From: Planctomycetota bacterium
Lineage (GTDB): Bacteria; Planctomycetota; Planctomycetia; Pirellulales; Pirellulaceae
NCBI GenBank assembly: GCA_024277285.1
Contig: JAJRVM010000093.1
Span: 1-24,038, forward strand
DNA length: 24,038 bases
Direction of reading: 5' to 3'
Positions 3,474 to 24,038 of this stretch are shown here, piece after piece. Within the stretch, counting starts at the first letter, position 1, and every line of letters starts with the position of its first letter. Under the pieces are notes generated by a model. The model searched no databases, was not told where the DNA came from, and saw nothing but the letters and a program-made list of their open reading frames with translations. Made by a program: the position numbers and the translations under genes.

Positions 3474-3521
3474 CCACGGAGGACAGCCAGCAGCGCCCAG
3501 TATTTGACGGGTCCACACTAC

Positions 3522-3593
3522 GAAATCGGTACAAATGGCGAAATCGGTACAAATGGCGAAATCGGTACAAATGGCGAAATCGGTACAAATGGC
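3522..3593. repeat. Four perfect tandem copies of an 18-bp unit
   Basis: The unit GAAATCGGTACAAATGGC occurs four times without mismatch or gap (3522, 3540, 3558, 3576). Because 18 is a multiple of three, frames stay open across it and give repeated hexapeptides on both strands. These frames have no start signals or homology that I recognise. Perfect identity suggests recent slippage expansion. Confidence 0.9.
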
Positions 3594-3763: not shown

Positions 3764-4174
3764 TTACGCGTCACGCACGGTGTCGATCGAGGGTGGGAAG
3801 GCCAGATAGCGCAACCCCAGAAAAGTAGCGAAACCGAACGTCACGGTATTGATTGCCCATGCGACCCAATAGTTGACGGTATGCAGATCGGCAAGCAAAT
3901 AGACGCTCAGTGTGGATGCGACTGCGGTGACGCCATAGACCAATGCGGCCCACTTCAAGCTCTCTTTATAGGCGGCGTTCGAGCGAAATGTGATCCAGCG
4001 ATGGGCGGCATGGGCTTCAAACGCCCCAATGATCCACGACGGCGCCCAGACACTTAACGATTTGTACGACGAGACGTCAAGCCAATCAAAGATATAGTTC
4101 AACGCAAAGAAAAATAGCACGTTCAGCGCGCCGATGATATTGAACCGCAGGTACTCAGCGAACAGTTTGTGCAT
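3764..4174 (-). CDS. GtrA-like small polytopic membrane protein
   Basis: A 136-aa protein with about four hydrophobic segments (roughly residues 8-30, 42-60, 72-95 and 100-125) and the GtrA-type N-terminus LFAEYLRFNIIGALNVLFFFALNYIF, followed by HRWITFRS. GtrA-family proteins act in the inner membrane and are linked to transfer of lipid-linked sugars for surface polysaccharide or teichoic acid modification. The ATG at 4174 is chosen; a TTG at 4192 would add six residues, and neither has a strong ribosome binding site. No glycosyltransferase partner is adjacent and repeats flank both ends, so this may be an isolated family member. The family call is good and the substrate is unknown. Confidence 0.75.
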   Translation of the reverse strand: MHKLFAEYLRFNIIGALNVLFFFALNYIFDWLDVSSYKSLSVWAPSWIIGAFEAHAAHRWITFRSNAAYKESLKWAALVYGVTAVASTLSVYLLADLHTVNYWVAWAINTVTFGFATFLGLRYLAFPPSIDTVRDA

Positions 4175-4545
4175 GCAGTAGCCCGCGGTCAAAGGACAAT
4201 TGCCGAGGTATCGTAACCGTCCGAAAGCCTCGAAGTCGTGGACCGCTAATGAACACGACCGCTAATGAACACGACCGCTAATGAACACGACCGCTAATGA
4301 ACACGAATATGCGCTAGTACTCAAAGGAAACCGAAGATTCGCAAAGGTCTTCTTGCGGCGCGAATCGTTGGCTTTCCTGAGCCCCTCGCCAGTCGCATTT
4401 GGCACATGATACGCGCACGTTATTGGTGTTCATCAACGTCCATTTGCGGTTCACCCGTTTTGCATTTCAAACGGCGACAAGCCTTCCTTGGCATCATCGT
4501 CAATCCGGTCGGTGCGCACTTGGCCAACCGCTAGGGGGGGCAGAC
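4175..4545. other. Non-coding gap with a 16-bp tandem array
   Basis: About 370 bp between the GtrA-like gene and the stop of the lipoprotein gene. The only structure I see is the four-unit array at 4241-4304. The plus-strand frame that starts in this gap continues antisense into the lipoprotein gene and has no recognisable features. Confidence 0.6.
4241..4304. repeat. Four perfect tandem copies of a 16-bp unit
   Basis: GACCGCTAATGAACAC repeats exactly at 4241, 4257, 4273 and 4289, followed by the partial unit GA. The core CGCTAATGAACACGAA is a motif I associate with dispersed non-coding repeats in planctomycetes. The array lies 66 bp upstream of the GtrA-like start and could lie in its leader or promoter. 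Confidence 0.9.
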
Positions 4546-5486: not shown

Positions 5487-7166
5487 CTACGGTTGGCGCA
5501 ACACGGCACCCGTGTCGGCACTGGTCACTTGGGCGGCGTAGCGTGCCAGGTAACCGTGGTCAATTTTGGGTCCCCGCGGTTGCCAATTATCGCGGCGGCG
5601 CTGCAATTCGTCGTCGCCAACCTGCAGGTTCAAGGTGCGGTTGGGGATGTCGATTTCAATCACGTCCCCCGGCTCGACCAACGCGATCGGGCCGCCGGCA
5701 GCTGCTTCGGGACTAACGTGGCCAATGCACGCACCACGTGTGCCGCCGCTGAACCGTCCGTCTGTGATCAACGCGACGCTTTCGCCAAGTCCGCGGCCCA
5801 TGATATTGGATGTGGGAGCGAGCATTTCCTGCATTCCCGGGCCACCACGCGGTCCTTCGTACCGAATCACGACGACGTCACCTTCCTTCACGTCACCGTT
5901 GAGAATGCCGGCGGAGGCATCTTCTTCCGATTCAAAGATCAAGGCCGGTCCACTAAACTTCATCATCGACGCGGCCACGCCGCCTGCTTTGATCACACAT
6001 CCGTCGGGGGCCAGGTTGCCGAACAGAATGGCCAATCCACCGCGGTCGCTATAGGCATTGTCCAACGAGCGAATAACGTCGTCGTCCTTCACATCGGCAG
6101 CGGCGATGTTCTCGCCCAGCGTCTTGCCGGTCACGGTCATACAATCGAGGTGCAACGTACCGGTTTTCTTGCCAATTGTGTTCAGGATAGCGCTGATTCC
6201 GCCCGCGCGGTCGACATCTTCGATATGGTGATGGCCGGCTGGCGAGACTTTGCAGATGTGTGGTACGCGTTCCGCTACTTCATTCAGTTTCTGCAACTGG
6301 AATTGTTGTCCCGCTTCGTTGGCGACGGCCAGCGTATGCAACACGGTATTGGTCGAACCTCCCATTGCCATATCCAGCGCTAAGGCGTTTTCAAACGCCT
6401 CGGGCGTCAGGATGTCGCGCGGCTTGATATCCTTTGCGATCAACTGCATGATGGTCCGAGCCGCTTCCTTGTACAGCTCGTCACGTTGCGGATCGGTTGC
6501 AAGCACGGTGCCGTTGCCGGGCAATGCGAGCCCCAATGCTTCACACAAACAGTTCATACTGTTGGCGGTGAACATACCGCTGCACGAACCGCACGTCGGA
6601 CAGGCGTTTTCTTCCAACTCGGTCAGTTTCGCTTCATCAATGGTGCCCGCAGACAGTTTCCCTACTCCCTCGAACACGCTGATCAAATCGATCGTTTTGC
6701 CATCACATGGGTCGACCCCAGCTTTCATGGGCCCCCCAGAAACGAAGACGGTCGGAATGTTGACGCGCGCGGCACCCATCATCATGCCGGGCACGATCTT
6801 GTCGCAATTCGGGATGCAGATCATGCCGTCGAAACAGTGTGCTCGGAGCATGGTTTCGACGCAATCGGCAATCAGCTCGCGGCTCGAAAGGGAGTACTTC
6901 ATTCCGACGTGTCCCATCGCGATGCCGTCACACACACCGATCGTGTTGAACTCGAATGGGATCCCGCCCGCGTCGCGCACCGCCTGCCGCACCTTGACAC
7001 CCACGACGTCCAAGTGTGCGTGGCCCGGAATGATCTGATTAAAGCTGTTAGCAACGGCAACAAACGGCTTGCGAAAATCGTCTTGGTCGCGGACTACGCC
7101 CGTCGCACGCAAAAGACTGCGATGAGGAGCCCGAATGGCATCTTTCTTGATCTTGTCGCTACGCAT
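5487..7166 (-). CDS. ilvD: Dihydroxy-acid dehydratase
   Basis: A full-length 559-aa IlvD, which converts 2,3-dihydroxy-isovalerate or -3-methylvalerate to the 2-oxo acids of valine, leucine and isoleucine synthesis in the cytoplasm. Hallmarks include [22 protein letters not shown], the [18 protein letters not shown] block, [20 protein letters not shown] and the C-terminal [23 protein letters not shown]. Candidate iron-sulfur cysteines are C79, C121 and C195. The PGHAHL form is like the E. coli enzyme rather than the plant or mycobacterial type, suggesting a 4Fe-4S cluster. An AAGGA lies about 10 bases before the ATG. No other branched-chain genes are adjacent. It lies 131 bp upstream of the lipoprotein start with no evident functional link. 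Confidence 0.97.
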
Positions 7167-7869
7167 AATGTCTCGGTCCTTGGTTTGGCCAGGAAAACCC
7201 CTATCTTAGCGAAAATGTGCGCCGTTTGCATCGGGCGAGTACTTGCCGGAATCTCCCATGGTTCGGCTCCCGTTTGCGCGCCCCCGAAACTCGCGTTTCA
7301 CTGTGGCTAGGCGATCTGAGCAAACCACAGGTTTTGCTGCAATACAGGAACGCACGCGCACGAGTGCACCAACGTTGGGGACGACGCGGTCTGGGACGAT
7401 ATTGTCACATGCTCGTGGCAACTCTCGGAATTGGGTGATCGTGACAAGTTTCACTTGCCTCCAAGTCGCCTTGCTTGGCAATTCGACACTTTGGCCGTCG
7501 GTAGTTGGGCGTGTCTCGATATCTGGCATCGAGGTCTGGGAGATGGGGGCGCGATCTAATAAGCCTGGCACGAACGGTGCCATGGCGGGGCCGCTCAAGG
7601 GCTGTGGCAGTGGGCGATGCATGGACGGCCGACGGGAGCCAAACTCGGACAGGAGGGATGAAAGTGCGACCGCAGATCAGCGCTTTGTCGAGCGTTTGCC
7701 AAGCCGGGCGGCATGCTCAATCGATACGGCGATCGTCGTCGACAATTTGCCCATTTTTTCTCTCCAAGTAACGCGTCAATCCCCATTTGGCGGGAACCGC
7801 TGCCGCAACGGAGAATCTCTTTGGACGATACTGTGGCCAAGTATCGGTCATTTCCAAAATGACGTGATA
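7167..7869. other. About 700 bp without a recognisable gene
   Basis: This is the gap between the ilvD start and the stop of the last stress-protein gene. It must contain the ilvD promoter and the 3' end of the USP transcript. Frames of up to 216 codons exist on both strands, but their translations are Arg/Ser/Pro-rich, overlap each other and match nothing that I recognise. I saw no tRNA, strong terminator or repeat. A decayed gene or a small RNA cannot be excluded. Confidence 0.5.
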
Positions 7870-8781
7870 CTAGGGCGGGAAGAGCGCGTCTAGCAAGCTC
7901 AGGCCCGTTCCCTTTTTCTTCACCGCGATCAGTGGTATGTCTACCGACCTGATCAACCGCTCGGTGACGCTGCCCAGGAGCAGCGCGGCGCCAAGGGCTC
8001 TGCCTCGTGCCCCCACCACCAGCAGGTCTACCTGCTGCTCCACACTTGCTTGTGTGATCGCCTGCGACGGATTCTTCGCCAGCAACACCTGGGGCTTCAC
8101 CAAGCACCCGTTGAGGTCACGATTCTTGATGAACATTTGGCACTTGTTTTCCACGTCCGACCGCATGAGCTCCGCGAACTGTTCGTGGGAAACGTCCGAT
8201 CCCAGATAGCGACTAGGTACTTTGAAAGCGTGCAAGCATCCGATTTCCGGCACCGCACAGGCTTTGCAAAACGCGATCGCTACGTCCATCGCGTCGCTAG
8301 AGTGTTCTGAGAAATCGACGGGCACGAGAATCTTTGTTATCTGCGGCTTGGAGCCTTCGGGAACGATCATGACCGAACATGGGGCCTTCCGGGCTAGATT
8401 CTCTTGCAGCATGCCGCTCTTTTGGTGTTCTTTGGTTTTCCCGACCAGTATCAGGTCGATTTCTTTCTGCCGGGTCAGTCGTAGGATCTCCACCAGCGGT
8501 GCTCCTGCGACAACCTCAAACGCCACCTCCGTCTCCGGGTGGCAGGAGAAGCGTTCTTCGACCATTTCCCCCATTTGTTTCGCCAAATGTTCGTCGACTG
8601 GCTCGAGCAATTCAGGGTATGCTTTGCGAATCGACTCGGGAATCTCCAGACTGCGGGCAACGTGAACGAAGTAGGTTTTCTCTGCCTTCGCCATACGACT
8701 GACCATTGCAGCGTACTCGATTGTCGTTCGATCGCGTTCGGCTCCAGCGAGGCCAACGAGCAGACGTTTGTATCTGTACAT
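7870..8781 (-). CDS. Tandem universal stress protein (two USP domains)
   Basis: A 303-aa cytoplasmic protein with two USP alpha/beta domains, roughly residues 3-145 (MYRYKRLLVGLAG start, APCSVMIVP end) and 149-290 (ITKILVPVDFSEHSSDAMDVA to IPLIAVKK). The second domain keeps the canonical ATP-binding pattern G-x2-G-x9-G-S in VVGARGRALGAALLLGSVTE. The first has a degenerate loop. The ATG at 8781 is preceded by GGAAGGAG at a 7-base spacing, which rules out the longer frame. The upstream USP gene ends 44 bp before, so the two are probably co-transcribed from the candidate sigma54 promoter at 9875-9890. USP proteins bind ATP or other ligands and support survival under starvation or hypoxia; the specific client is unknown. 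Confidence 0.92.
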   Translation of the reverse strand: MYRYKRLLVGLAGAERDRTTIEYAAMVSRMAKAEKTYFVHVARSLEIPESIRKAYPELLEPVDEHLAKQMGEMVEERFSCHPETEVAFEVVAGAPLVEILRLTRQKEIDLILVGKTKEHQKSGMLQENLARKAPCSVMIVPEGSKPQITKILVPVDFSEHSSDAMDVAIAFCKACAVPEIGCLHAFKVPSRYLGSDVSHEQFAELMRSDVENKCQMFIKNRDLNGCLVKPQVLLAKNPSQAITQASVEQQVDLLVVGARGRALGAALLLGSVTERLIRSVDIPLIAVKKKGTGLSLLDALFPP

Positions 8782-8825
8782 GAGCCACTCCTTCCTGAAT
8801 TTCCACACGGCCTGAAAATGGGCGT

Positions 8826-9785
8826 TCAATTCACCGTTAAACTGATCGGCGAAACAAATCCGTCCGGTTTGACGGTCAGCACCGAACATGTCACATTCCG
8901 AAGAACGCTTTCGGCGGTATTGCCGATGAAGAAGCCGGCCACACCGGTGCGGCAGACGGTCCCCAAGACGATCAGATCAATCTGCTGCTCTTGAGCCAGA
9001 TTAGGGAGTACGTAGTCCGCATCACCTTTCACCAGGTGAACTCGCGAAATCACGGTTCCCAACTCCGAGTTATCAAGAAGTTTGCCAAGCTGCCGTTCAT
9101 GCCGTTGCCGTTCCTCACGGACCAGCGCATCCACTTTCGCTTCGTTCAGGTGCGCCTGAGCGCTTCTGAACAGAGATTCCCCGTACAGCGTCCACGCATG
9201 AACGATGTGAAGCTCGCTTTGTTCCAGTGTGGCCAGGGAGGTTGCGAGGCCCATGATCTTCGTGTTTAGCGCGTCATGCTCCACTGCAGAATCGTGCGGA
9301 TCGGTGTCGACCGCAGCCAGTATTCGAGCAAACCGTTTGCCAGGAGTGGGTTTCACGACCCAGACGGGGCAAGGGCATTTGCGCATCAGATGCAGTGACG
9401 TATTGCAAAAAAAGGGAGCCCTCAGTCCACCCTCATGTTCCGCGGTCATGATTACGAGATCATGTTGTTCGCGCAGCACTTCGCGAATGATTTCTAAGAA
9501 CGCAGTACCCGAAAGCACCTTCGTATCAACGCGCGTGCGTGCCATTCGCACGGGCGCTAGCAGTTCAGCCAACTGCTCATGCGCTGCCTGAATGACCATC
9601 TCATGCACGTCCGAAACGGACATGACTTTAGCGAATTCACGAGCTTCCCGAGGCCGCGGCCCGACCATCTTGACCACCGTTAGCTTCGCGTCGTTTTCCT
9701 TTGCTAGCGTTACGGCGCGGTCAAGAGCCGCCTGGTTGTCGGCCACAGGGGCAAGGACCAGCAGGACTTTCTTGAATCGCTGCAT
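8826..9785 (-). CDS. UspE-like tandem universal stress protein
   Basis: A 319-aa protein with two USP domains. The start MQRFKKVLLVL at 9785 is chosen by analogy with its paralogue at 11767-12699 (MKRFKNILFV) and because AGGGGG precedes it. The first domain ends in SLHLMRKCPCPVWVVKP. The second ends in LGTVCRTGVAGFFIGNTAESVL..CSVLTVKPDGF, close to the UspE signature, but with Cys in place of the second Gly of the usual GTVGRTG nucleotide loop. The gene is first in a two-gene unit with the USP gene at 7870-8781, and a candidate sigma54 promoter lies about 79 bp upstream. Its architecture fits a ligand-binding stress protein; the exact role is unknown. Confidence 0.92.
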   Translation of the reverse strand: MQRFKKVLLVLAPVADNQAALDRAVTLAKENDAKLTVVKMVGPRPREAREFAKVMSVSDVHEMVIQAAHEQLAELLAPVRMARTRVDTKVLSGTAFLEIIREVLREQHDLVIMTAEHEGGLRAPFFCNTSLHLMRKCPCPVWVVKPTPGKRFARILAAVDTDPHDSAVEHDALNTKIMGLATSLATLEQSELHIVHAWTLYGESLFRSAQAHLNEAKVDALVREERQRHERQLGKLLDNSELGTVISRVHLVKGDADYVLPNLAQEQQIDLIVLGTVCRTGVAGFFIGNTAESVLRNVTCSVLTVKPDGFVSPISLTVN

Positions 9786-9874
9786 TTCGGGGACCCCCTT
9801 TTTATCTTCCGGTTCCAATTGAAGAAGTCGCTTCTACTATGAGGCTTCGCTCTGACCGTCTTTGCACGTCTGCT

Positions 9875-9890
9875 CGCAACCCCAATGCCT
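9875..9890 (-). promoter_or_regulatory. Candidate sigma54 promoter (P3) for the two USP genes
   Basis: On the minus strand the sequence reads AGGCATTGGGGTTGCG. It has GG and GC exactly 10 bases apart and matches 8 of the 12 defined positions of TGGCACGNNNNTTGCW. The predicted start is near 9864, giving a leader of about 79 bases. It lies in the only intergenic space of this unit (9786-9956). It is the weakest of three such sites, and its meaning rests on the other two plus the nearby sigma54 activator. Confidence 0.45.
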
Positions 9891-9956
9891 CGCACCTCGC
9901 TGCGGCTTGTCGCTGTCAAATGCCACGCAAGTGGTTTCTGGACAGAGCTAGGAGTG

Positions 9957-11117
9957 TTAACGGTGTCGACCGAGCACGGGATGTCGGCCCCGAATTTCAG
10001 CTTCGATCTTCATGTCCCAAAGGTGGCGCACGATATCGTGTGCATGCTTCTCGCACTTAACCGCCTCTTCGTGTTGACCCAAACGCCGATGTGCGGCAGC
10101 CATTCCCTCCCATGCCGGAGCATACATCATGTCTCTGGTGACACATCGTTGGAATTGGTTCACGGCTTCTGCGGGAAACCCGTTTTCCAGTAGTTCATGC
10201 CCGAGCGCTAGCTGCGCCGCAAGGTTTGCGATTTCGGCGTCCAAGCGCAACCGGATCGCGTGTTCTGATTTGACCGTAACGATGGAACAGGGCATCTCCT
10301 GAGCGACGCGCCGCGTAACGCTACCGATTAAGATCCGTGAAATCTCCGTTCTTCCCACAGTACCCATGACAAGCAGGTCCGATCGGATTTCAGTGGCGAC
10401 TGCCACGATTTCTCGATGTGGTGTACCACGGCGTATGAGTTTGTCCCGGCGAACGTCGTAGAAGTCAAAACCCTCGAGGAACTGATCAAGTTGAGGCAGT
10501 TGCTCTCGTACACATTCCTCCTCTGCCACGATAGCATCAGGCGCGAAGCGACCGTAGTATTCCGGCAGGCCTTGGAGCACGGTAAGGACCGTCAATGTGG
10601 CCCGAAACTGGCGTGCCAAATGAATGGCGTTTTCGAGCGCGCAAGCGGACGAAGGGGAGCAGTCGACCGGACAAAGAATCGTCTGGACTTGAGCTGCAGC
10701 GTCTGGCTTCACGACCCAGACCGGTTTGGTTGTTCTGCGCCGAATTCTGGCCGCGGTCGTGCCCAACCGACCTGGCCCGCCATCGTCCGACTTGCCAGCC
10801 CCCATGATGACTACATTGACATCGCGTTCGGCTGCGTGCCGTTCAATCTGCTCGAATGGGACACCTCTCTCGACGACCGTCTCGACTTGCTCGATTCCCT
10901 CGGCTCGGATTCGTTGTGCGATCTCTTCCAAGTGGTTGTCGATTTTCCTTCTAAACATGCCTTGGAGATCGGAGCAGAAATCTACCGTTCCCGGCATTAC
11001 GTGAAGCAAGCATATCTGCGACTGGAATTGTTTTGCGACATAGACAGCAGTCGCGATGACGTTTTCTCCCGCCTGGGAGAAATCGGTCGGTACGAGAATC
11101 TTTTCCAAGAGTTTCAT
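9957..11117 (-). CDS. Universal stress protein fusion: USP-USP-TPR
   Basis: A 386-aa protein. USP domain 1 covers about residues 4-141 (MKLLEKILVPTDFSQAGENVIATA to TKPVWVVKPD) and has a degenerate loop. USP domain 2 covers about 144-283 and carries a canonical nucleotide loop, MGTVGRTEISRILIGSVTRR, with G-x2-G-x9-G-S. About 100 residues follow, containing at least one or two TPR-like helix pairs (LGHELLENGFPAEAVNQFQRCV and YAPAWEGMAAAHRRLGQHEEAVKCEKHA). A TPR tail suggests a protein partner for the stress sensor. GGGGAAGG precedes the ATG at 11117. It lies 95 bp after csrA and is probably co-transcribed with it from the sigma54-type promoter at 11509-11524. Confidence 0.9.
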   Translation of the reverse strand: MKLLEKILVPTDFSQAGENVIATAVYVAKQFQSQICLLHVMPGTVDFCSDLQGMFRRKIDNHLEEIAQRIRAEGIEQVETVVERGVPFEQIERHAAERDVNVVIMGAGKSDDGGPGRLGTTAARIRRRTTKPVWVVKPDAAAQVQTILCPVDCSPSSACALENAIHLARQFRATLTVLTVLQGLPEYYGRFAPDAIVAEEECVREQLPQLDQFLEGFDFYDVRRDKLIRRGTPHREIVAVATEIRSDLLVMGTVGRTEISRILIGSVTRRVAQEMPCSIVTVKSEHAIRLRLDAEIANLAAQLALGHELLENGFPAEAVNQFQRCVTRDMMYAPAWEGMAAAHRRLGQHEEAVKCEKHAHDIVRHLWDMKIEAEIRGRHPVLGRHR

Positions 11118-11212
11118 GGCCTTCCCCTTTCACGGTGGTAAGAAGACGTCGGGATCGGTCAAGCCGTGGTTCGTTTCATTCACGCCGCTCAGCGTCGCCT
11201 TGCTCAGCGTCA

Positions 11213-11443
11213 TCAACGATCGTTGTCGGTGTCCCGCGCGGCAGTCGTCGCTGCTTTCACATCCCTTAGCGCCGTTTTCGCGTTGCGACCTCTATCCCGA
11301 ATTTCGTGCCGTTGGATGGACACTTCTGGTGGGGCCGCGATTCCGAGTCGGACTCTCTTGCCGGTGATACCCAAGACCGTAACGGTTACACCACAGTCCG
11401 GCAGTACGAGTTCCTCGCCACGTTTCCGATTTAGGACTAACAT
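11213..11443 (-). CDS. csrA: CsrA/RsmA-type RNA-binding translational regulator
   Basis: A 76-aa protein. Residues 1-48 are a typical CsrA core: MLVLNRKRGEELVLPDCGVTVTVLGITGKRVRLGIAAPPEVSIQRHEI. L4 and R45 correspond to the RNA-contact residues L4 and R44 of the E. coli protein. The C-terminal tail (about 25 residues, RGRNAKTALRDVKAATTAARDTDNDR) is charged and longer than in most short CsrAs. CsrA dimers bind GGA-containing leaders and control translation or stability of mRNAs for metabolism and stress. AAAGGAAC lies 8 bases before the start, a purine-rich leader that could itself be bound. It is transcribed together with the USP-TPR gene. Confidence 0.95.
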   Translation of the reverse strand: MLVLNRKRGEELVLPDCGVTVTVLGITGKRVRLGIAAPPEVSIQRHEIRDRGRNAKTALRDVKAATTAARDTDNDR

Positions 11444-11508
11444 CGCGGAAGTTCCTTTCCTTCTCGCCGTCGAACTACGGATTGACCAAACCTCGATCAG
11501 ATAACCTC

Positions 11509-11524
11509 TGCAATTCGTGTGCCG
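11509..11524 (-). promoter_or_regulatory. Candidate sigma54 promoter (P2) for csrA and the USP-TPR gene
   Basis: The minus strand reads CGGCACACGAATTGCA, matching 10 of the 12 defined positions of TGGCACGNNNNTTGCW with correct GG-to-GC spacing. The predicted start is near 11498, a leader of about 55 bases to csrA. It lies in the intergenic space after the UspE-like gene. An 18-bp palindrome lies about 132 bp upstream of the predicted start, as expected for an enhancer site. Confidence 0.65.
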
Positions 11525-11621
11525 GACCGTGAAGTCGTGACACGTTTTGACCTAAGTACGGTCCACGCAACGAAATTACGTTCATTTGCTCACTGCGTCC
11601 GGAGGCAATGACCGTCGTTGT

Positions 11622-11639
11622 GTGTCGGCGAACTGACAC
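11622..11639. promoter_or_regulatory. Palindrome U2, candidate activator (enhancer) site for P2
   Basis: GTGTCGGCGAACTGACAC has outer arms GTGTC/GACAC that pair perfectly, one G-T, then a G-C pair. It shares 13 of 18 positions with the palindrome at 13377-13394, including GTGTC, the central A and CTGAC. Its centre is about 132 bp upstream of the predicted P2 start. Both are intergenic. Confidence 0.5.
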
Positions 11640-11665
11640 CACGTTGAAAAGCGGACGCATTCATT

Positions 11666-11682
11666 GCTAGGCAGAGCCTAGC
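11666..11682. terminator. 7-bp perfect hairpin after the UspE-like gene
   Basis: GCTAGGC pairs with GCCTAGC over an AGA loop, about 85 bases after the stop of the UspE-like gene at 11767. It could end that transcript, although no long T-run follows on the minus strand. A 4-bp CTGG/CCAG hairpin lies beside it. Confidence 0.35.
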
Positions 11683-11704
11683 TGGACAGCGCCAGTTAGC
11701 CGCC

Positions 11705-11733
11705 CAATGACGAATGACGAAACACCCAATGAC
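11705..11733. repeat. Short TGACGAATGACGAA-type direct repeat
   Basis: The stretch CAATGACGAATGACGAA followed by CACCCAATGACC contains iterated AATGAC words. I associate such (A)ATGACGA runs with dispersed non-coding repeats in planctomycetes. No function is implied. Confidence 0.4.
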
Positions 11734-11766
11734 CAAGAACGCCGGCTACCGAGGGCGCGAAACCGA

Positions 11767-12699
11767 TTACAAGACCGGCGTCAGGAAGCGATCTGGCTTT
11801 ACTGTCAGCACGGAGCACTCCACCTGCTGCAACACTTCTTCGGCAGTGTTCCCAATAAAGAAACCGGCAACCCCCGTTCGGCAAACGGTTCCCATAATCA
11901 GAAGATCTGCTCGGACGTGCTCGACCAGAGCGGGAATAACCGCTGCCGCCTTACCTTTCACAAGGTGCGTCTGAATATCCACTTCTGGCAGCGAGTACTG
12001 TTGTAGGAGTTGGTCAATCATGGTCCTGTGTCTACGATGCTCGCTCGTCACCCACTCCTCCGCGTTGTCTGCCGAGATGCGATTGCGCAGTAGTTCTTCG
12101 CCAAACAAATTCCATGCATGTACGATATGCAATGTGCTTCTTTCCATCTGGCTCAGAGATGTTGCCAAGTCCATGATCTTTGTGTCGAGGTGATTCGCAT
12201 CTTCGTTAAAAGAATCCGGATCAACCGCGGCCACGATCCGTTTGTATCGATTGTGACGCGTTGATTTCATCACCCAGACAGGGCACGGGCACTGTCGCAT
12301 GAGATGCATCGACGTACTGCCGAACAATTTTTGTTTCAAACCAGCGGCACGGTCCGTATCCTCGGTCGTCACAACCACCAAATCACGTTTCTTGCGGACA
12401 ACTTCGAGAATAATCTCCTGAAATGGTTTGCCGACAAGCACGTTCGTGTTGACGCGTGTTCCTTTCTTACGGAATGGGGCAACGAACTTCTCCAGCCGTT
12501 CCTTTCGGTCGTTCACGATCAATTGTTGCAGATCCTGAGGTGGTTTCACGGTTGCCACGATGCGCGCGCGCTGAGGCAATTCTTCGATGACATCAACCAC
12601 GGTCAATTGCGCACGGTTTGTTTTTGCCAACGCCAACGCACGTTTGAGCGCACTCCTGTCTTGGTCGGAAACGAAAAGAATGTTCTTGAATCGTTTCAT
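11767..12699 (-). CDS. UspE-like tandem universal stress protein (paralogue of the one at 8826-9785)
   Basis: A 310-aa protein with two USP domains, about residues 1-145 (MKRFKNILFVSDQDRSALKRAL to MRQCPCPVWVMKS) and 150-305. Its nucleotide loop, MGTVCRTGVAGFFIGNTAEEVLQQVECSVLTVKPDRF, is nearly identical to the paralogue, including Cys where UspE has Gly. The two genes look like products of an old duplication. AAGGAG lies 11 bases before the ATG. It is 77 bp after the receiver gene and probably in its transcript. The role is likely ligand-dependent stress adaptation, with the specific client unknown. Confidence 0.93.
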   Translation of the reverse strand: MKRFKNILFVSDQDRSALKRALALAKTNRAQLTVVDVIEELPQRARIVATVKPPQDLQQLIVNDRKERLEKFVAPFRKKGTRVNTNVLVGKPFQEIILEVVRKKRDLVVVTTEDTDRAAGLKQKLFGSTSMHLMRQCPCPVWVMKSTRHNRYKRIVAAVDPDSFNEDANHLDTKIMDLATSLSQMERSTLHIVHAWNLFGEELLRNRISADNAEEWVTSEHRRHRTMIDQLLQQYSLPEVDIQTHLVKGKAAAVIPALVEHVRADLLIMGTVCRTGVAGFFIGNTAEEVLQQVECSVLTVKPDRFLTPVL

Positions 12700-12776
12700 C
12701 GGTTATCGTTCTCCTTCTTGAGCGGTGGCCAAGGAAGTTCATTGCGTTAGAAACTAAACCGAAACGGGTTTCTGAA

Positions 12777-13175
12777 TCAGAGTGGTGGTAGCCCCAGGCG
12801 GAAAAGCTTGTTGCCCTTCCGTGCGGCCAAAGATCTGCGGATTGCGAGTTTCAATTCCGAGAGATCCTCTGACTTCTCGACACAGATGGCTGCGAGTCGA
12901 CTGCGCCGGTCGGTGAGACAATCTTCATCGTTGGCGGTAAATAGAATGACTGGAACGCCCGGGGCGAGCGCGTGGATCGCTTCAACGGCATCAAGGCCAC
13001 CGACTCGTGGCATGCGAAGATCCAGGACGACCAAATCAGGTGTTGCTTGCTCAACGATGTCAATTGCCTCCTGGCCATCGCGCGCCAGGACGACATCGTA
13101 TCCTTCATCTTCAAGTTCCTGTTTGCAGAAGTCGCGAATGCTTTTCTGGTCGTCGGCCAATAGAATCGTTGCCAT
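12777..13175 (-). CDS. Single-domain response regulator (CheY-like receiver)
   Basis: A 132-aa protein made of one receiver domain and no output domain. Key residues are present: acidic pair D8/D9 (LLADDQ), phospho-acceptor D52 (LVVLDLRMP), T80 (ILFTAND) and K101 (VEKSEDL). The C-terminal tail (RKGNKLFRLGLPPL) is short and without known motifs. AGGTGA precedes the ATG. It heads a unit with a UspE-like gene behind a strong candidate sigma54 promoter. It may be a second phosphate acceptor for the nearby kinase, or a feedback element, because it lies downstream of that kinase's own activator. Its partner cannot be settled from sequence. Confidence 0.93.
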   Translation of the reverse strand: MATILLADDQKSIRDFCKQELEDEGYDVVLARDGQEAIDIVEQATPDLVVLDLRMPRVGGLDAVEAIHALAPGVPVILFTANDEDCLTDRRSRLAAICVEKSEDLSELKLAIRRSLAARKGNKLFRLGLPPL

Positions 13176-13241
13176 GGTTCACCTATCATCTCGCCTGAAT
13201 ACCGATGTGACGTGGCCGTGATACGTTGCAGATCATCTCCT

Positions 13242-13257
13242 TGCAAACACGATGCCA
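13242..13257 (-). promoter_or_regulatory. Candidate sigma54 promoter (P1) for the receiver and UspE-like genes
   Basis: The minus strand reads TGGCATCGTGTTTGCA, with TGGCA and TTGCA blocks at exact sigma54 spacing (10 of 12 defined positions). The predicted start is near 13231, giving a leader of about 56 bases, almost the same as for P2. It is intergenic, between the NtrC-type regulator and the receiver gene. Confidence 0.65.
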
Positions 13258-13376
13258 AACCCTAACGACCAAATGCCCAGTTGGTTGCAAGTCGGGCATG
13301 TACCGCGGGATGGGACACCATAATACGCTCGGCAGCGTCTTGCAGAATGACCTGCGCGTGGCAATCGATCGACAGC

Positions 13377-13394
13377 GTGTCAGGAACCTGACGC
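13377..13394. promoter_or_regulatory. Palindrome U1, candidate activator (enhancer) site for P1
   Basis: GTGTCAGGAACCTGACGC contains a perfect GTCAGG-AA-CCTGAC core. It resembles the palindrome at 11622-11639 at 13 of 18 positions. Its centre is about 154 bp upstream of the predicted P1 start. It touches the stop codon of the NtrC-type gene, so it could instead help end that transcript, but a two-base loop makes a simple RNA hairpin unlikely. Confidence 0.5.
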
Positions 13395-14818
13395 TATTTG
13401 TCGCTTTTGGTGTGAAGGCCGTGTTTTTGCATTTTGGCATGAAGGGTGGGACGCGTCAGACCAAGCAACTGGGCTGCTCGAGTCTGATTGCCTTTGGTCC
13501 GGCGGAGGGCATCGGCCAGCAACATGCGTTCGACTTTCTCCAAGAACTGTTCGCAGGTACCGGCTCCTCCGTGCGCGTCGAGCCACCGTTGAACGATATT
13601 CAACATCCGGTCGTGGTCGAGGTCGGCCGTACCTGTCGGTCCCTGGCCACGGTCGGGAGCCAGCGTGAGTTGCAGGTCCGTCGCTTGCAGAGAACGCCCC
13701 TTGGTTTGGATTATCGCTCGCTGGATACAGTGTTGAAGCTCACGAATATTTCCCGGCCAGGAGTGGTGTTGCAGAAGCGAGACAGCATCTTCAGATATTG
13801 GCGGGCTATCGACGTTGAGTTCTCGCGCTGATCGCTCCAAGAAGTATTGGACCAGCGCGGGAATGTCCTCGCGTCTTTCTCGCAATGGAGGCACTCTGAT
13901 CGTGACGACGTCCAGGCGATAGTAGAGGTCTTCCCGAAAGGCACTTTCCGCGATGGCAATCTCCAAATCTCGATTCGTGGCGGTCAGCACGCGCACATTG
14001 ACGCGGATCGTCCGGTTACCACCGAGTCGCTCGAATTCCTGCTCTTGCAATACACGCAGGATTTTGGCCTGAATACTCAGCGGCATGTCACCGATCTCAT
14101 CAAGGAACACGGTGCCGCCGTCAGCCTGTTCGAACTTACCGATGCGGCGCGCCGTTGCTCCGGTAAACGCGCCTTTTTCATAACCGAACAGCTCGCTTTC
14201 CAGAAGCGTCTCGGGAATGGCGACACAATTGACGACGGAAAGGGGGGCATCACTGCGTAGGCTGTGTTGGTATATCGCCTGCGCGACCAGTTCCTTGCCA
14301 GTCCCCGACTCGCCCCGGATGAGCACGGTGGCATCGGTTTGCGCGACACGTCCGATGGCCTTGTAGACTTCCTGCATGGGTGCACTTTGGCCGATGATGG
14401 CATCGCTGCTCGCAACGTCGCCTTTTCGACCAAGCGCGACATGGCACTTCATGAGCCGGGCACACTGCAGTGCCTTTTCGATCGTTTGGAGCATGTCGGC
14501 CGGTTCAAACGGTTTCAGGTGGTAATCAAAGGCACCCCGTTTGGTGGCTTCTACGGCAGTCTCCATCGTTCCTTGGCCGGTCATCATGATGACCGGCAAC
14601 TTCGGATGTCCGTCCTTGATCTTCTTGAGCGCGTCGAGCCCACTCATACCCGGCATGCGGATATCCAGAATCACCAGATCGAATTGTTCGGTCTCGATGC
14701 GTTCCAAAGCCGCTTCGGCACGGCGGGCGGTGAGGACTTCATGCCCCTCGGTACCAAGTACTTCTTGGAATCCGGACAGCACGTTCCGTTCGTCGTCAAC
14801 TACCAGAATTCTGCTCAT
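13394..14818 (-). CDS. NtrC-family sigma54-dependent response regulator
   Basis: A 474-aa protein with three domains. A receiver (residues 1-120) has D8/D9, phospho-acceptor D52, T80 and K102. A sigma54-interacting AAA+ domain (about 140-370) has Walker A GESGTGKE (169-176), an intact GAFTGA loop (216-221), Walker B GGTVFLDE (234-241) and the arginine-finger region [13 protein letters not shown]-terminal Fis-type helix-turn-helix (about 443-468, [21 protein letters not shown]) binds DNA. The intact GAFTGA means it should contact sigma54. It starts inside the kinase gene (23-bp overlap), so the two are translationally coupled and form a pair. The likely targets are the three units downstream with -24/-12 promoters. 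Confidence 0.97.
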
Positions 14819-16307
14819 CGGCTTCGTTTCGCGCTATCGGAGTCCAGACTGCAAACGTCGTTCCCCGTTGGGTTGATGATTCCAATACCAGCCGTCCTCC
14901 GTGTCTCGCCATGATTTGAGCGGCGATACAAAGGCCAAGTCCCGTGCCGTCATCTTTCGTCGTGTAGAACGGTTCAAAGACGCGTTCACGAACGTCTTGT
15001 GGCATGCCGCAACCAGTATCATGAACGCGCACGACTACCATCGGACGATCGTCAGACACGCAATCCATTTCAATCGCAATCCGAATCTCACCACCTTCGT
15101 TGGTCGCTTCGACGGCATTATCAAGCACGTTGATGAGCACTTGCTTGAATTGATCGGAATCGGCCGTTACCGGCGCCAAGTGGCTAGCGTCGGCGCGGAC
15201 CAACCGCAGTTTCTTATCTTCAATCCGATGGCGGAACAGCTCCAATGTCCTATCGACAATCGCTGCCACTGACTGCTCCCCTAACTCCAGCGCCGGCGGC
15301 CGCGAAAACTCAAGGAAGTTTCGAACGATCTTCTCGAGTCGCGTGATCTCGGCGGAGACAATATCAAATTTCCGATCTAGTTCGGGAGCTTCCCCGATCG
15401 TTTTACGGATAGAGAACAACCACATCTTGACCGCAGTCAGTGGGTTGCGTATTTCATGCGCCACTCCGGCCGCCAGCTTGCCGACCACAGCCAGTTTCTC
15501 GGCATTGACCAAACGTCTGCGATTCTCCTCGAGAGCCGATCGAGCATCTGATACGTCGCACATCAGCGAACGCAAGTATTCTCCAACGGCGGGTAATTCG
15601 TCATCGGGTGAGTCCACGGCGCAAGGCGACGTCTGACGAGTGAAGCTACGGGCTTCCGCAACCATTTGCCGCAACGGTATTCGAACTTCGTGGAAGAACA
15701 GCCAGCCAAGAGCTGCACCAACTCCGATGGTCATCGCTGTGAATCCGCCGACGATCCAAGTGGCACGAGTGATGTGGCATTGTGCGCGTTCCGTGGCGGC
15801 GTCAATATAGCGTTTGTTCTCTGCAATGAAGTCCCGCGACAATTGATCGACCTGCATGGAAAGGTGACGTACTTCATTAAGGAAGAGCGCAATTGCGTTG
15901 TCTCGATCACCACGTTGGTAGCGTGAAATCATCTCGTCTCGCTTCTCGTCATATTCGCGATAGGTTCGTTCCAGTTCGCCTAGAATCTTCCTTTCGCCGC
16001 GCGTGTGAGCAGTCGCTCTCGCGCGCTCGAACGCGAGTCGGAAAGAACGCTTCTTTTGCTCCAAATCTCTGAGCCGTTCCGAATTCCCATCGTCCAGGAT
16101 GAACGAGACGACGACGCCCCGTGTTTCGAGCAGCGCAATCTCCAGTTCTTCGGCCGCACGGAGGCTTGGCAGGTTCTCCGTGACGGTATCCTGCATCAAC
16201 CCTCCGATATGCCAAGCCACAATCAAAGCAACGCCGCTGCTGGACATGGCCAAGCCGACCACACCGACGATCGCGATCGAGAATTTCGTTGCCAATGTTG
16301 AATGCAT
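14796..16307 (-). CDS. Membrane sensor histidine kinase
   Basis: A 503-aa kinase. Two membrane segments (about residues 11-33 and 183-205) flank a roughly 150-residue helical extracytoplasmic region that looks like a four-helix-bundle sensor (QDTVTENLPSLRAAEELEIALLETR...). A short HAMP-like linker follows (VRIPLRQMVAEARSF). The H-box GKLAAGVAHEIRNPL holds H284. The catalytic domain has N-box NVLDNAVEA (N393/N397), G1 DTGCGM (430-435), F-box FEPFYTT and G2 GTGLGL. The ATG at 16307 is chosen; a TTG directly before it is an alternative. The signal is unknown. It overlaps the gene of its presumed NtrC-type partner. Confidence 0.95.
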   Translation of the reverse strand: MHSTLATKFSIAIVGVVGLAMSSSGVALIVAWHIGGLMQDTVTENLPSLRAAEELEIALLETRGVVVSFILDDGNSERLRDLEQKKRSFRLAFERARATAHTRGERKILGELERTYREYDEKRDEMISRYQRGDRDNAIALFLNEVRHLSMQVDQLSRDFIAENKRYIDAATERAQCHITRATWIVGGFTAMTIGVGAALGWLFFHEVRIPLRQMVAEARSFTRQTSPCAVDSPDDELPAVGEYLRSLMCDVSDARSALEENRRRLVNAEKLAVVGKLAAGVAHEIRNPLTAVKMWLFSIRKTIGEAPELDRKFDIVSAEITRLEKIVRNFLEFSRPPALELGEQSVAAIVDRTLELFRHRIEDKKLRLVRADASHLAPVTADSDQFKQVLINVLDNAVEATNEGGEIRIAIEMDCVSDDRPMVVVRVHDTGCGMPQDVRERVFEPFYTTKDDGTGLGLCIAAQIMARHGGRLVLESSTQRGTTFAVWTPIARNEADEQNSGS

Positions 16308-16494
16308 CAAGTGCCGCTTTCGATGTGCGTCTACGCCGCCACTCTATTGGGGGCCACTGTGTTAGAGCGTGTGTTGCCATGCATATCCGATGTCAATTCG
16401 CGTGATCGTTCAAACAGGGTGACACCGCACAGCGACGTTAATTGGCGCCAGTCAAACGCGAATGTCACAATCTGAATCAGAGCCGATCGCAGTC

Positions 16495-18282
16495 TCATAC
16501 CTGCATCCCTTCATTTTCCTCGATCGTCGCCAGGAAATGATCATATTCCTGGGATGTACGCGGCGAGTAGTTGAGATTCTTTAGCAGGCCGATTTGCTTT
16601 GTGAAGTAGCTGCGTGCACTCTCTTTGTCATCGAAGTGATAGGCACGCTGCACAAGCCGCTCAATCAGTGAAAATAACTCTTGCTGCCGCTCCAGGGACG
16701 CCGAGACATCAACCGGATCGAAGGCATCTTGTTGCAAGTAGACCATATCCACTAACATCGCTTTTTGATAAACAATGAAATCATCGAGTGTAATACCTTC
16801 CTCGCCAGTGACTTGCATCATCTGAAAGACACTGTTCCCGTGCTCCAGTAATGTCAGTATGGCTTTGACCGATTCGCTCCATCCTGCGCGGACATGTTTG
16901 TCAAAAAAAGGTGCGACTTGGTCTAAGTAACGCGACCAGGACGTCAACGGATCGACAGCCGGATAGAACCGTTTGTAGGCACGTTCATACGACAACCCGA
17001 GAAATGTTTTGACGGTGCCAAGCGTGGATTGTGTCACTGGCTCCTCGAAGTTGCCACCGGCCGGTGAAACTGTGCCGATCATGGTCAGGCTGCCCGTCGC
17101 GCCATCACGGGTACGAATGACTCCAGCGCGCTCGTGAACACTCTTGATAGCCGAATCAAGATAAGCGGGAAAGGCCTCCTCGCCAGGAATCTCCTCTAAC
17201 CGGCCCGACGTTTCCCGCATAGCCTGTGCCCACCGTGATGTCGAGTCGGCCAATAGCAGGACATGGTGTCCCATTTGACGGTAGTACTCGCCCAGCGTGA
17301 TGCCCGTATAAATCGACGCTTCCCTTGCTGGAACGGGCATCGACGACGTATTGCAGATGATAATGGTACGGTCCATCAGCTTTCCTTCGCCGTGAGGGTC
17401 CTGCATCTCGGAGAACTCGACGAGTGTTTCGACGACTTCACCTGCACGTTCGCCGCAGGCCACGACGATGACGATATCGGCCGCCGAATGGCGTGCGATC
17501 AACCCCTGAAGCACCGTCTTGCCAGCGCCGAACGGCCCAGGAATACACGCCGTGCCGCCCAGGGCAATAGGAAAGAATGTGTCAATTAGCCGCGTCGTCG
17601 TGATCAGTGGCTCCGAGGGATAGAGCCGCTCGACCAAACGACGACGCAACATCGCTGCGGATAGAGGTCGTCGCACCGGCCACGTTTGTGCCATGGTGAG
17701 CGAACGCTCGTGTCCGAAGGCATCACGCACTCGGGCCACCGGCTCCTCCACGGTGTAACTGCCGCTCTTGATCCAGGTTAGTTCCAATTCACCTGGCTCA
17801 GCGAAAGGGACCATGATCTTGTGCACAACATGCAGTTCTTGGACCGTACCCAAGACGTCGCCCGCCGTGAGCATTGCACCGACTTGCTGAATTGGCGTGA
17901 AGGCCCAGCGGACTTCGCTGTCCAGCGGTTCAACGTAACGACCACGTCGGAGAAAGAAGCCGTCTTTGGCGGCGAGCGTCTTTAGAGGGTTTTGGAGCCC
18001 GTCATAGATGTTCCCCAACAACCCTGGCCCCAAACTGACCGAAAGCAATTGACGAGTGAATTCGACTCGATCGCCAACTCTTACACCTTGCGTATCTTCA
18101 AAGACCTGCAAGTCAGCGGTACGGCCGTGAATTCGCAAGACTTCGGCTTTCAATTTCTGCTCAGCAACGCAGACGTAGGCGACCTCGTTCTTCATGATAG
18201 AGCCGGTGGGAGCCACAACGCTGACGACGTTGCCAACGACTCCGCTAACGGTGGCTTCATTCGTATAGGTTGACGTATTCAC
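16495..18282 (-). CDS. atpA: V-type ATPase catalytic subunit A
   Basis: A 595-aa catalytic subunit of the V1 head. The P-loop is GPFGAGKT (249-256) and the catalytic glutamate is E278 in CGERAGEV. The A-type non-homologous region precedes it (about 115-190, with ELTWIKSG), and the SRWAQAMRE and PAYLDSAI blocks follow. The start is GTG at 18282, supported by GGAG seven bases upstream. The gene overlaps the end of the DUF2764 gene by 26 bp, so it is translationally coupled. It is the last gene of the operon, whereas in chlamydia-like loci A lies in the middle, before B. It hydrolyses ATP or makes it, coupled to ion movement through the I/K membrane part. Confidence 0.97.
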
Positions 18283-18925
18283 TTAACGACTCCATGACAA
18301 GTTGATCAAAGTACTGCCGGCCACGTGTTGCATCTCGACTAACCCAACGGTGGATGATCTCCCAACGTGTCAGATAGAGCAGCACCGCTTCGAAGGAGAA
18401 GAAATAATGCTCGGCTACCCTGTACCAATGGTCCCATGCGAATTCCAATAGCGACCGCTCAATCCGTACACAATCAGTTGTGCCGACTGTTCGCGCCACT
18501 TCGGCGATCCATGGATACTGCCAGTGTAGGCGTAACTCCGGATGCTCCCAGTTGTTTCGGATATGGTCGGTCCATTGCCCCAGCCCGGGCGCCGGTGGCA
18601 AGCCACGGCGGCGCCGCCGCAAACTACTCACAACCGCCTGAATGTCCCTTTGATAAGTCACGATGTGACGAGCCAGACGATTGTTCATACACACTATTAA
18701 ATTGTTGTAGTGCGAGGCCGCATTCTCGTCGGTCAACTCATTCGGTTGCCGGCTCCAACGGAAAAGCTCAAGAAGCTGCTTGACGACCTCGGCATCCTCA
18801 CTTGTTAGCATTTCCAGCCGTTGTTTCAGGTCGAGCAGACTGATCGGAACGTGCTCAACATCGAAATGACGCGGCAAGGCCGGTAGGCTGGCGACAAGCG
18901 TGTAATAGCTGCTGCTGTGGGGCAT
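18257..18925 (-). CDS. DUF2764 family protein of V-ATPase operons
   Basis: A 222-aa protein starting MPHSSSYYTLVASLPALP, the N-terminal signature I know from DUF2764 proteins coded next to bacterial V-ATPases (for example CT309 of Chlamydia). It is mainly helical, with Trp-rich segments (RLHWQYPWIAEV, LEFAWDHWYRVAEHYFFSFEAVLLYLTRWEIIHRW). It sits between subunits E and A, where other V-ATPase operons encode subunit C. Because no subunit C gene is present, it may substitute as the socket or stalk adaptor. That is inference. It lies 12 bp after the E gene and overlaps the A gene. Confidence 0.8.
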   Translation of the reverse strand: MPHSSSYYTLVASLPALPRHFDVEHVPISLLDLKQRLEMLTSEDAEVVKQLLELFRWSRQPNELTDENAASHYNNLIVCMNNRLARHIVTYQRDIQAVVSSLRRRRRGLPPAPGLGQWTDHIRNNWEHPELRLHWQYPWIAEVARTVGTTDCVRIERSLLEFAWDHWYRVAEHYFFSFEAVLLYLTRWEIIHRWVSRDATRGRQYFDQLVMESLSEYVNLYE

Positions 18926-18937
18926 TGTTGCATCTCG

Positions 18938-19606
18938 CTAATCGGAACCGTCCACGATTGCTCGGAAACGCGGCAGCAAGTGCTGCAGAAGAAACTCCGT
19001 GATGGCTTCTTCATTAAAAGAAATCTCGACATCCTCCTCGATCATCTTGACGCGTATGCCGGGAGTGTCATCGTCGGCTACTCCGAACGTGACTCCTTCA
19101 CGCATCATTTGGCTCGATAGCGACAGCACAAAGTGACACAAGCTACCTTCTCGAGCTGCCTGCATTTCACGACGTGCCTCCTCGGGTGGCAACACATTGT
19201 CCGGCAAAAGGAACTCCAGAGTGTGGCTGCTCTCTTTCGGCACCGCGCGGCCGGCGATTTCCAAGATCAACCGTTGCATAAACGGTTCGTCCTGCAGGCA
19301 GTGCGAAGCGAGGCGGCGCACCTGTTTGCCAAACAGATCGGACATTTCTTCCTGCAATGCCAGAAGAGTGTCGCGCGCTGCCAACCGCAAGGCTGCATCG
19401 CCCGCCGCACGAATATTCGCCGCCTCATCGCGGGCCTGTTGGAGCAGTTCGGACGCCTCCTGGCGAGCTTCGGCAAGGATCGTCGTGGCCCGTTGCCGCG
19501 CATCGTCGACGAGTGCGGCGGCCTGGGCGTGGCCTTCCTCAACACCTTTCTCTCGCAGGCGATCTATCAGCTCTTGCACGCCCGAGGATCGTTCTGTTGC
19601 GGTCAT
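18938..19606 (-). CDS. atpE: V-type ATPase peripheral stalk subunit E
   Basis: A 222-aa protein with the expected layout: a long charged N-terminal coiled coil (about 1-110, rich in Ala/Glu/Arg, LVDDARQRATTILAEARQEASELLQQARDEA) and a C-terminal globular domain ending FNEEAITEFLLQHLLPRFRAIVDG. The longer upstream frame is rejected. The ATG at 19606 begins MTATERSSGVQEL, has AAAGGA upstream and lies 25 bp after the K gene. Subunit E normally pairs with G/H. No separate G/H gene is seen, so the second stalk strand is missing from this operon or encoded elsewhere. Confidence 0.85.
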   Translation of the reverse strand: MTATERSSGVQELIDRLREKGVEEGHAQAAALVDDARQRATTILAEARQEASELLQQARDEAANIRAAGDAALRLAARDTLLALQEEMSDLFGKQVRRLASHCLQDEPFMQRLILEIAGRAVPKESSHTLEFLLPDNVLPPEEARREMQAAREGSLCHFVLSLSSQMMREGVTFGVADDDTPGIRVKMIEEDVEISFNEEAITEFLLQHLLPRFRAIVDGSD

Positions 19607-19631
19607 TCTGTCGCGGTCCTTTCTTGATACC

Positions 19632-22500: not shown

Positions 22501-22507
22501 TACCTGG

Positions 22508-23860: not shown

Positions 23861-24038
23861 ATTCCCCGAGGAGCAAACGTCACAAATCCACTAGGCTTTG
23901 TCTCAAAACGCCCTTTCGCGCGGCAAAGCCATGTCATTCTCAGCAGATTACGCGAAACGCAAGGTGTAAATACGAGTTTTGAGACGAAGCCGAAGGCAAG
24001 AACACAATGAGACACCAGCACAGCGAAGCAGTTGAAAC
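23861..24038. promoter_or_regulatory. Upstream region of the V-ATPase operon with an inverted repeat
   Basis: No gene is visible in these 178 bp. GGCTTTGTCTCAAAAC (23894-23909) and GTTTTGAGACGAAGCC (23976-23991) are inverted with one mismatch across 66 bp. The operon promoter must be here or beyond the window, but I see no convincing -35/-10 or sigma54 motif. The repeat may be part of another interspersed family continuing past the edge. Confidence 0.55.

Follow-up and report, generated by a model that had tools for sequence, protein, structure and literature searches.

A candidate local sigma54 regulon linking a kinase/NtrC-family two-component system to universal stress protein and csrA genes in a planctomycete

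In Planctomycetia, predicted sigma54 promoters are enriched before the genes for universal stress proteins (Usp; COG0589) and CsrA (COG1551), and CheY-like receivers (COG0784) are among the prominent sigma54 classes (PMC12316311, where csrA of Pirellula sp. strain 1 is named with reference to Studholme and Dixon 2004). The portion of that study available to us gives neither an activator-specific enhancer motif nor a module composed of a kinase, an NtrC-family regulator, a receiver, and CsrA, and the term “V-type” is absent from it. Here we describe such a module in a 24,038-nucleotide stretch of DNA from a Planctomycetota bacterium of the Pirellulaceae (contig JAJRVM010000093.1), all of which was analyzed and is called the window below. 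In it, the genes for a membrane kinase and an NtrC-family regulator lie beside those for a receiver, CsrA, and four Usp proteins, and two putative sigma54 promoters (P1 and P2) precede the receiver gene and csrA. A preliminary description of this DNA regarded the arrangement as undescribed; the enrichment of sigma54 promoters before Usp and csrA genes had in fact been published, whereas the module itself was not met in our literature search.

The closest worked example in kind, going by the accessible text, is NmpRSTU of Myxococcus xanthus (PMC11841059), which likewise combines an NtrC-like regulator, paired dyads, sigma54 promoters, and a Usp target, and in which NmpR also binds the promoter before a putative operon holding nmpR. 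However, the NmpR dyad (GCGCA-N5-TGCGC, 14 to 15 nt apart in five of seven bound promoters) is unlike the dyads of the window in both sequence and spacing, its targets concern oxygen use, and “csrA” and “V-type ATP” are absent from the main text as available. The sigma54 regulome of Desulfovibrio vulgaris (PMC4641369) is similar in having NtrC-family regulators with assigned targets that include general and envelope stress units, but “universal stress” and “csrA” do not occur in what is available of its main text. A further paper discusses rpoN of Rhodopirellula baltica (PMC2754498) and, in its accessible part, does not contain “universal stress.” ZraSR is described as a metal-stress system that often works with sigma54 and can regulate itself (PMC12316311). 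It and AtoSC resemble the window system in that the best NCBIfam matches are AtoS and ZraS for the kinase and NtrC, AtoC, and, further down, ZraR for the regulator, all below cut-off; they differ in that the window proteins reach no member model and that the window targets are receiver, CsrA, and Usp genes.

We consider it very likely that the cluster is a local sigma54 regulon of the adjacent kinase/NtrC-family two-component system, which would act through tandem dyads at P1 and P2. The V-type ATPase, kinase, regulator, receiver, csrA, and Usp genes are all on the minus strand, and the elements that carry the argument are as follows.

14796-16310, minus strand: membrane sensor histidine kinase (Pfam 4HB_MCP, HisKA, and HATPase_c)
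13394-14818, minus strand: NtrC-family response regulator, proposed activator of P1 and P2 (GAFTGA intact, Fis-type HTH, TRPTLHAKM helix)
13377-13394, minus strand: P1 enhancer dyad 1, GCGTCAGGTTCCTGACAC, overlapping the end of the NtrC-family gene; best dyad in the window (24.2 bits, relatives' model)
13358-13375, minus strand: P1 enhancer dyad 2, CTGTCGATCGATTGCCAC, with a weak right arm; starts 19 bp from dyad 1
13242-13258, minus strand: P1, putative -24/-12 promoter TTGGCATCGTGTTTGCA before the receiver gene
12777-13175, minus strand: stand-alone receiver (REC) with phospho-acceptor residues, first gene of the P1 unit
11767-12699, minus strand: two-domain universal stress protein, UspE-like (Pfam, NCBIfam), second gene of the P1 unit
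11641-11658, minus strand: P2 enhancer dyad 1, GCGTCCGCTTTTCAACGT, weak (6.1 bits, relatives' model)
11622-11639, minus strand: P2 enhancer dyad 2, GTGTCAGTTCGCCGACAC, a perfect GTGTC-N8-GACAC (13.0 bits, rank 2, relatives' model)
11509-11525, minus strand: P2, putative -24/-12 promoter CCGGCACACGAATTGCA before csrA
11213-11443, minus strand: CsrA (Pfam PF02599), first gene of the P2 unit
9957-11117, minus strand: Usp-Usp protein with a TPR-like C-terminus (Pfam; TPR matches under cut-offs)

The preliminary description had reported three motifs with GG-N10-GC spacing, and all three are present (TGGCATCGTGTTTGCA, CGGCACACGAATTGCA, and AGGCATTGGGGTTGCG); the leaders of 56, 55, and 79 nt that it predicted follow if transcription starts 12 nt after the GC. 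The RpoN weight-matrix scan that it proposed separates them: P1 ranks first in the window (15.7 bits) and P2 third (14.6 bits), while the motif at 9875-9890 ranks 40th (6.8 bits). In the 884 bp of coding-strand intergenic sequence, chance would supply 0.007 sites of at least 14 bits and 0.45 sites of at least 7 bits, which places P1 and P2 well above chance and the 9875 motif not. Thus, P1 and P2 combine the GG and GC elements and the 10-bp spacing with a context that scores above chance, and promoters equivalent to P1 occur in relatives; the motif at 9875-9890 has the correct spacing and a score at chance level. The claim that each intergenic space holds a motif was too strong, as none of the 30 best sites (at least 7.8 bits) lies in the gaps 12700-12776 or 11118-11212. 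This fits genes internal to operons. The plain consensus with up to three mismatches is mildly enriched in the window (136 matches against a mean of 109; none of 100 shuffles reached 136), and rpoN is present in all four related genomes searched. A local alignment of the P1 and P2 regions scores 25.0, a value reached by 3 of 1,000 shuffles and 2 of 912 random window segments; this resemblance, slightly beyond chance, would fit a duplication and is suggestive only.

The stronger evidence is a feature that the preliminary description had missed. Upstream of each promoter, by 96 to 99 bp, stands a putative tandem pair of 18-bp dyads with a 19-bp offset between their starts, at about -127 to -163 (P1) and -124 to -160 (P2) relative to the predicted start. 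Similar layouts occur in two Planctomycetota bins that hold the nearest loci among named records. In the first (L001), dyads GTGTCAGCTTCCTGACGG and CTGTCGGGCGACCGACAT and promoter CTGGCACGTCGATTGCA, with a gap of 100, are upstream of a V-type ATPase B gene; in the second (L002), dyads CTGTCGGATTTCTGGCGT and CTGTCGGTTGACGGACGT and promoter TCGGAACGGCATTTGCT (11.6 bits), with a gap of 110, are upstream of a Usp gene. The P1 and L001 pairs came from a pattern search blind to spacing. When a dyad model is built from the L001 and L002 sites alone, no tandem places in the window score higher than the P1 and P2 pairs (22.0 and 19.3 bits, against 10.2 for the next). Conversely, the window sites alone yield a model whose best tandem places in L001 and L002 are the pairs given above (29.6 and 21.6 bits); the runners-up there reach 11.4 bits, from a shifted overlap with the same site, and 9.6 bits.

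A further model, called the relatives' model here, was made from nine dyads of six orthologous loci and excludes the sites of the window, L001, and L002, although one of its sites, from L155, happens to equal an L001 site. In the window it places 13377 first (24.2 bits) and 11622 second (13.0 bits), with the third at 8.6 bits. The best dyad in shuffled windows has a mean of 11.9 bits and a 95th percentile of 15.6, so the P2 dyad by itself is not significant. In combination, a dyad of at least 12 bits and a sigma54 site of at least 12 bits within 75 to 150 bp occur twice in the window, whereas 500 shuffles average 0.002; the same combination is found nowhere in 137 other loci (1.61 Mb, some overlapping).

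The module recurs. Among 147 relatives of the L001 genome (G001), the regulator search found a match of 85% identity in one genome and eight further matches of 56 to 64% spread over six genomes; the remaining matches reached at most 51% over the full length or at most 54% over part. A dyad and a sigma54 motif lie within about 500 bp after the regulator gene in L148, L151, L152, L153, and L158; the dyads of L155 are accompanied by a weak promoter (9.9 bits). Further searches at E <= 1e-145, in overlapping sets, matched 3 of 397 class genomes, 13 of 396 order genomes, and 9 of 196 relatives of the L002 genome (G002), and these provided eight new orthologues at 58 to 63% identity (L205 to L212) that are not part of the dyad model. 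Compared with 23 paralogue controls (46 to 50% identity), a dyad of at least 14 bits within 500 bp after the regulator is found in four of the eight (L205, L207, L208, and L210) versus none (P = 0.002). Over the same distance, a sigma54 site of at least 12 bits is found in six of the eight versus four controls, with a fifth just under 12 (P = 0.006). Tandem spacing is 19 bp in L205, 20 in L208, and 19 in L210, and also 19 in L211, with weak sites.

The order kinase, regulator, receiver, CsrA is found in 8 of the 18 orthologous loci besides the window (L148, L152, and L207 to L212). Of these 18, 13 encode a receiver close to the regulator and 10 encode CsrA there, some contigs ending early. In L148, L209, L210, and L211, BON domains are either fused to CsrA or come after it, exceeding the Pfam cut-off in L210 and L211, and in L148 the genes further downstream encode STAS, hemerythrin-like (slightly below cut-off), release-factor-like, and Usp proteins. 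From this comparison, the window appears to be a Usp-rich version of the module, with a UspE-like gene between the receiver gene and csrA, and with csrA having its own putative promoter, P2. Kinase identity to the counterparts is 70% for L148 and 71% for L002. Among the regulator matches listed (120 of 3,578), close homologues with an organism name are mostly from Pirellulales, Pirellulaceae, Thermoguttaceae, and other planctomycetes, but also include a Handelsmanbacteria (65%) and a Bryobacteraceae (63%) protein.

The dyads also accompany a particular recognition helix. The regulator carries RPT[LF]H in 14 of 19 orthologous loci, the window included, and another helix in L154, L156, L157, L206, and L212. 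A dyad of at least 12 bits is present in the 3 kb downstream (less at contig ends) in 12 of the 14 RPT[LF]H loci, the exceptions being L209 and L211 (10.1 bits), and none of the five others has a promoter-paired dyad (P = 0.002 versus the RPT[LF]H loci by that definition); six of the 12 dyad-bearing loci are source loci of the dyad model.

Several observations weigh against the proposed regulon. The sigma54 weight matrix is approximate, being based on the published consensus. The second-best site of the window (9327-9343, 15.1 bits) is in Usp coding sequence in the sense direction, without dyads. The preliminary description had named equally good scores in coding sequence as grounds for doubt, and this site is the single case; it is probably a chance match, and it means that the motif score by itself could not settle the promoter question. 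Part of the dyad set was chosen rather than found: the weak P2 site at 11641 was selected because it starts 19 bp from its strong partner, the pair in L002 was spotted by eye, and the first dyads were also picked by eye. Outside the model loci, the helix association is not significant (six of eight versus none of two, P = 0.13). Among the orthologous loci, L154 and L156 have a promoter without adjacent dyads, L157 has neither, and the dyad of L154 lies at +817, away from any promoter; four of the eight new orthologues lack a strong dyad (sigma54 motif only in L209 and L212, a weak dyad of 10.1 bits in L211, neither in L206). Finally, a search at E <= 1e-120 did not detect the regulator in G001, the genome with the dyad-bearing V-type ATPase promoter of L001.

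The last point bears on the alternative that survives best, although we regard it as unlikely: that the sigma54 promoters are real but another enhancer-binding protein drives them, the dyads being its sites and the neighboring NtrC-family protein incidental. Candidates would be plentiful, as a loose first look counted 47 to 214 NtrC-like proteins per matching related genome, and the bin in which the regulator went undetected nevertheless holds a dyad-bearing promoter. However, a dyad is within 30 bp of the NtrC stop codon in 9 of the 19 orthologous loci, no dyad of at least 12 bits occurs within 500 bp after any of the 23 paralogues, and the presence of dyads follows the RPT[LF]H helix that this regulator carries. 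Less probable again is that the dyads function in RNA, for example as a weak terminator hairpin behind the NtrC gene, and not as enhancers. A perfect inverted repeat, GTCAGGTTCCTGAC, does lie at the NtrC stop, but in a terminator scan it is terminator-like solely on the opposite (plus) strand, the gene strand having no following T run, and terminator-like sites are as frequent in the window as in shuffles (11 versus 10.0). Furthermore, many loci have sites paired 19 to 21 bp apart, also before Usp and V-type ATPase genes, and it is the letters that recur, not pairing alone. It is very improbable that the sigma54 motifs arose by chance and that ordinary promoters serve these genes: the 9875 motif is at chance level and the coding-sequence site at 9327 scores nearly as high as P1, but P1 and P2 exceed intergenic expectation, dyads and sigma54 sites co-occur far beyond the shuffles, and 7600-16600 contains one sigma70-like site against 3.9 in shuffles.

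The regulon of the adjacent two-component system, as the preliminary description had proposed it, is thus strongly supported for P1 and P2 by the dyads and orthologous loci, but not for its third promoter. That motif and the remaining features of the window are as follows.

9875-9890, minus strand: third reported motif, AGGCATTGGGGTTGCG, without dyads
8826-9785, minus strand: two-domain universal stress protein, UspE-like (Pfam, NCBIfam)
7870-8781, minus strand: two-domain universal stress protein (Pfam; start inferred at the MYRYKRLL methionine)
16495-23860, minus strand: V-type ATPase operon (B, D, I, C/K, unassigned protein, DUF2764 protein, A), immediately upstream of the kinase gene

We rejected 9875-9890 as a promoter of the regulon for its low score and lack of dyads. 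In L002, a strong sigma54 motif (16.8 bits, 11210) follows the same Usp-Usp-TPR gene, likewise without dyads, so that a promoter at 9875-9890 is still conceivable.

The gene identifications of the preliminary description hold. The membrane kinase coupled to the regulator has its 4HB_MCP, HisKA, and HATPase_c domains, and the intact GAFTGA loop is accompanied by an NtrC-family architecture in which PF00072 (REC), PF00158 (Sigma54_activat), PF25601, and PF02954 (HTH_8) all exceed the Pfam cut-off. The regulator is below the equivalog cut-offs of NR(I)/NtrC proper (TIGR01818, 506.7 versus 558.6 bits), ZraR (401.5 versus 760 bits), and AtoC (456.1 versus 714 bits). Pfam also recovers the receiver, CsrA, and the four Usp proteins, all of which have two Usp domains. 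CsrA scores 62.7 bits for PF02599 (cut-off, 27) and does not reach the NCBIfam csrA equivalog cut-offs. Both UspE-like proteins are below the UspE equivalog cut-off (NF008380; 181.7 and 183.2 versus 227 bits), making them tandem Usp proteins and not UspE proper, and a plasmid search with the UspE-like protein gave 114 records, every one below 60% identity. A scan of the window at the gathering threshold found no Rfam family. Perfect tandem repeats are present at 3521-3593 (18 bp x 4.1) and 4241-4306 (16 bp x 4.1).

The view of the regulon as self-contained appears too narrow, since V-type ATPase operons in two related genomes (L001 and L103) show the same enhancer-promoter layout. At L001:3248-3401, the tandem dyads are joined by a near-perfect sigma54 promoter (19.7 bits), and this element ends about 228 bp ahead of the B gene start, which suggests that sigma54 controls a V-type ATPase. 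The same contig, at L001:5735-8361, fuses N- and C-terminal parts of atpI, 28 kinase residues, and a hybrid of two Usp genes, in what look like internal deletions or misassembly. On account of these junctions, we did not use L001 as proof of whole-cluster regulation and relied on its V-type ATPase promoter region alone. The G002 contig was also scanned with the relatives' model upstream of L002, in the part called L103. The sole tandem place of L103, at 3823-3975, consists of TCGTCCGTATTCTTACAG and CTGTCGAGCAACTGGCAC, offset by 19 bp (18.0 bits, the next place scoring 1.8), followed after a gap of 99 bp by the sigma54 motif GTGGCATGCCGATTGCG (13.4 bits). None of 300 shuffles of L103 gave as good a joint score, and no 19-bp dyad pair of at least 8 bits occurs in 136 background loci (1.60 Mb, some overlapping), pairs near sequence ends aside. 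This enhancer-promoter precedes a Usp gene, an unassigned gene, a DUF2764 gene, and V-type ATPase A, so that on one contig the order in G002 is enhancer, promoter, Usp, V-type ATPase, kinase, regulator, receiver, enhancer, promoter, and Usp genes. No promoter for the V-type ATPase operon of the window was found in 23860-24038; a position like that in L001 would fall about 50 bp past the end of the window. Usp and Usp-Usp-TPR genes also adjoin V-type ATPase genes in Bacteroidota (L010, L011, and L012, from two Marinoscillum records and one Cytophagales bin), which extends the association of the two beyond planctomycetes.

We claim no distant targets of the enhancer code. Whole-genome searches matched 76 of 246 genomes against 46 of 246 with a reversed control pattern, and 3 of 9 genomes in a second gap range; the hits include known orthologous or V-type ATPase contigs (five in the first search and two in the second gap range), and the matches are mostly chance-like. 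Two other pairings of sigma54 motifs and Usp genes were seen. In L115, divergent motifs (6017-6033 and 6206-6222; 18.0 and 17.9 bits) lie between an NtrC-like gene (44%) and a Usp gene, possibly a second type of sigma54-Usp pair, and at L111:2612-2628 a near-perfect motif, CTGGCACGCCAATTGCA (19.7 bits), stands ahead of a UspE-like gene.

From the motifs, the dyads and their recurring geometry, the recurrence across loci, and the association of dyad and helix, all of which the sequences carry, we infer binding, activation, operon extents, and roles for the receiver and CsrA. The membrane kinase would relay a signal to the NtrC-family regulator, which, once phosphorylated, would assemble on the tandem dyads and remodel sigma54 polymerase at P1 and P2. 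P1 would drive the genes for the receiver and the UspE-like protein, and P2 those for CsrA and the Usp-Usp-TPR protein and, probably by read-through, the last two Usp genes. One sensor system thus probably switches on the Usp proteins, the receiver, and CsrA together. The receiver retains, by eye, the acidic pair, the acceptor aspartate, and the lysine, and for this reason may compete for phosphate, draining it from the kinase as negative feedback; CsrA would carry the response on to mRNAs.

A broader proposal is tentative, and we think it somewhat more apt to fail than to hold. Under it, a single kinase-NtrC pair, patchily distributed among planctomycetes, would tie sigma54 transcription directly to post-transcriptional control. 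One dyad code would drive CsrA, a receiver acting in feedback, Usp or BON proteins, and also the V-type ATPase operon that precedes the kinase genes. Such a system would be an energy-stress or dormancy switch, with positive feedback via the V-type ATPase operon and negative feedback via the receiver. The layout in L103 makes both this proposal and the main reading a little more probable. If the regulon is as we propose, CsrA and stress proteins would be under the joint control of an enhancer-dependent promoter system, as would an ion-pumping ATPase in some species. As far as our literature search reached, the module is new, and so are its enhancer code and the link to the V-type ATPase. They would take a general statistic, that predicted sigma54 promoters are common before planctomycete Usp and csrA genes, to a defined regulator, a DNA code, and a testable list of targets. 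To our knowledge, little regulation has been worked out in this phylum, and the module may offer a handle on planctomycete stress signaling.

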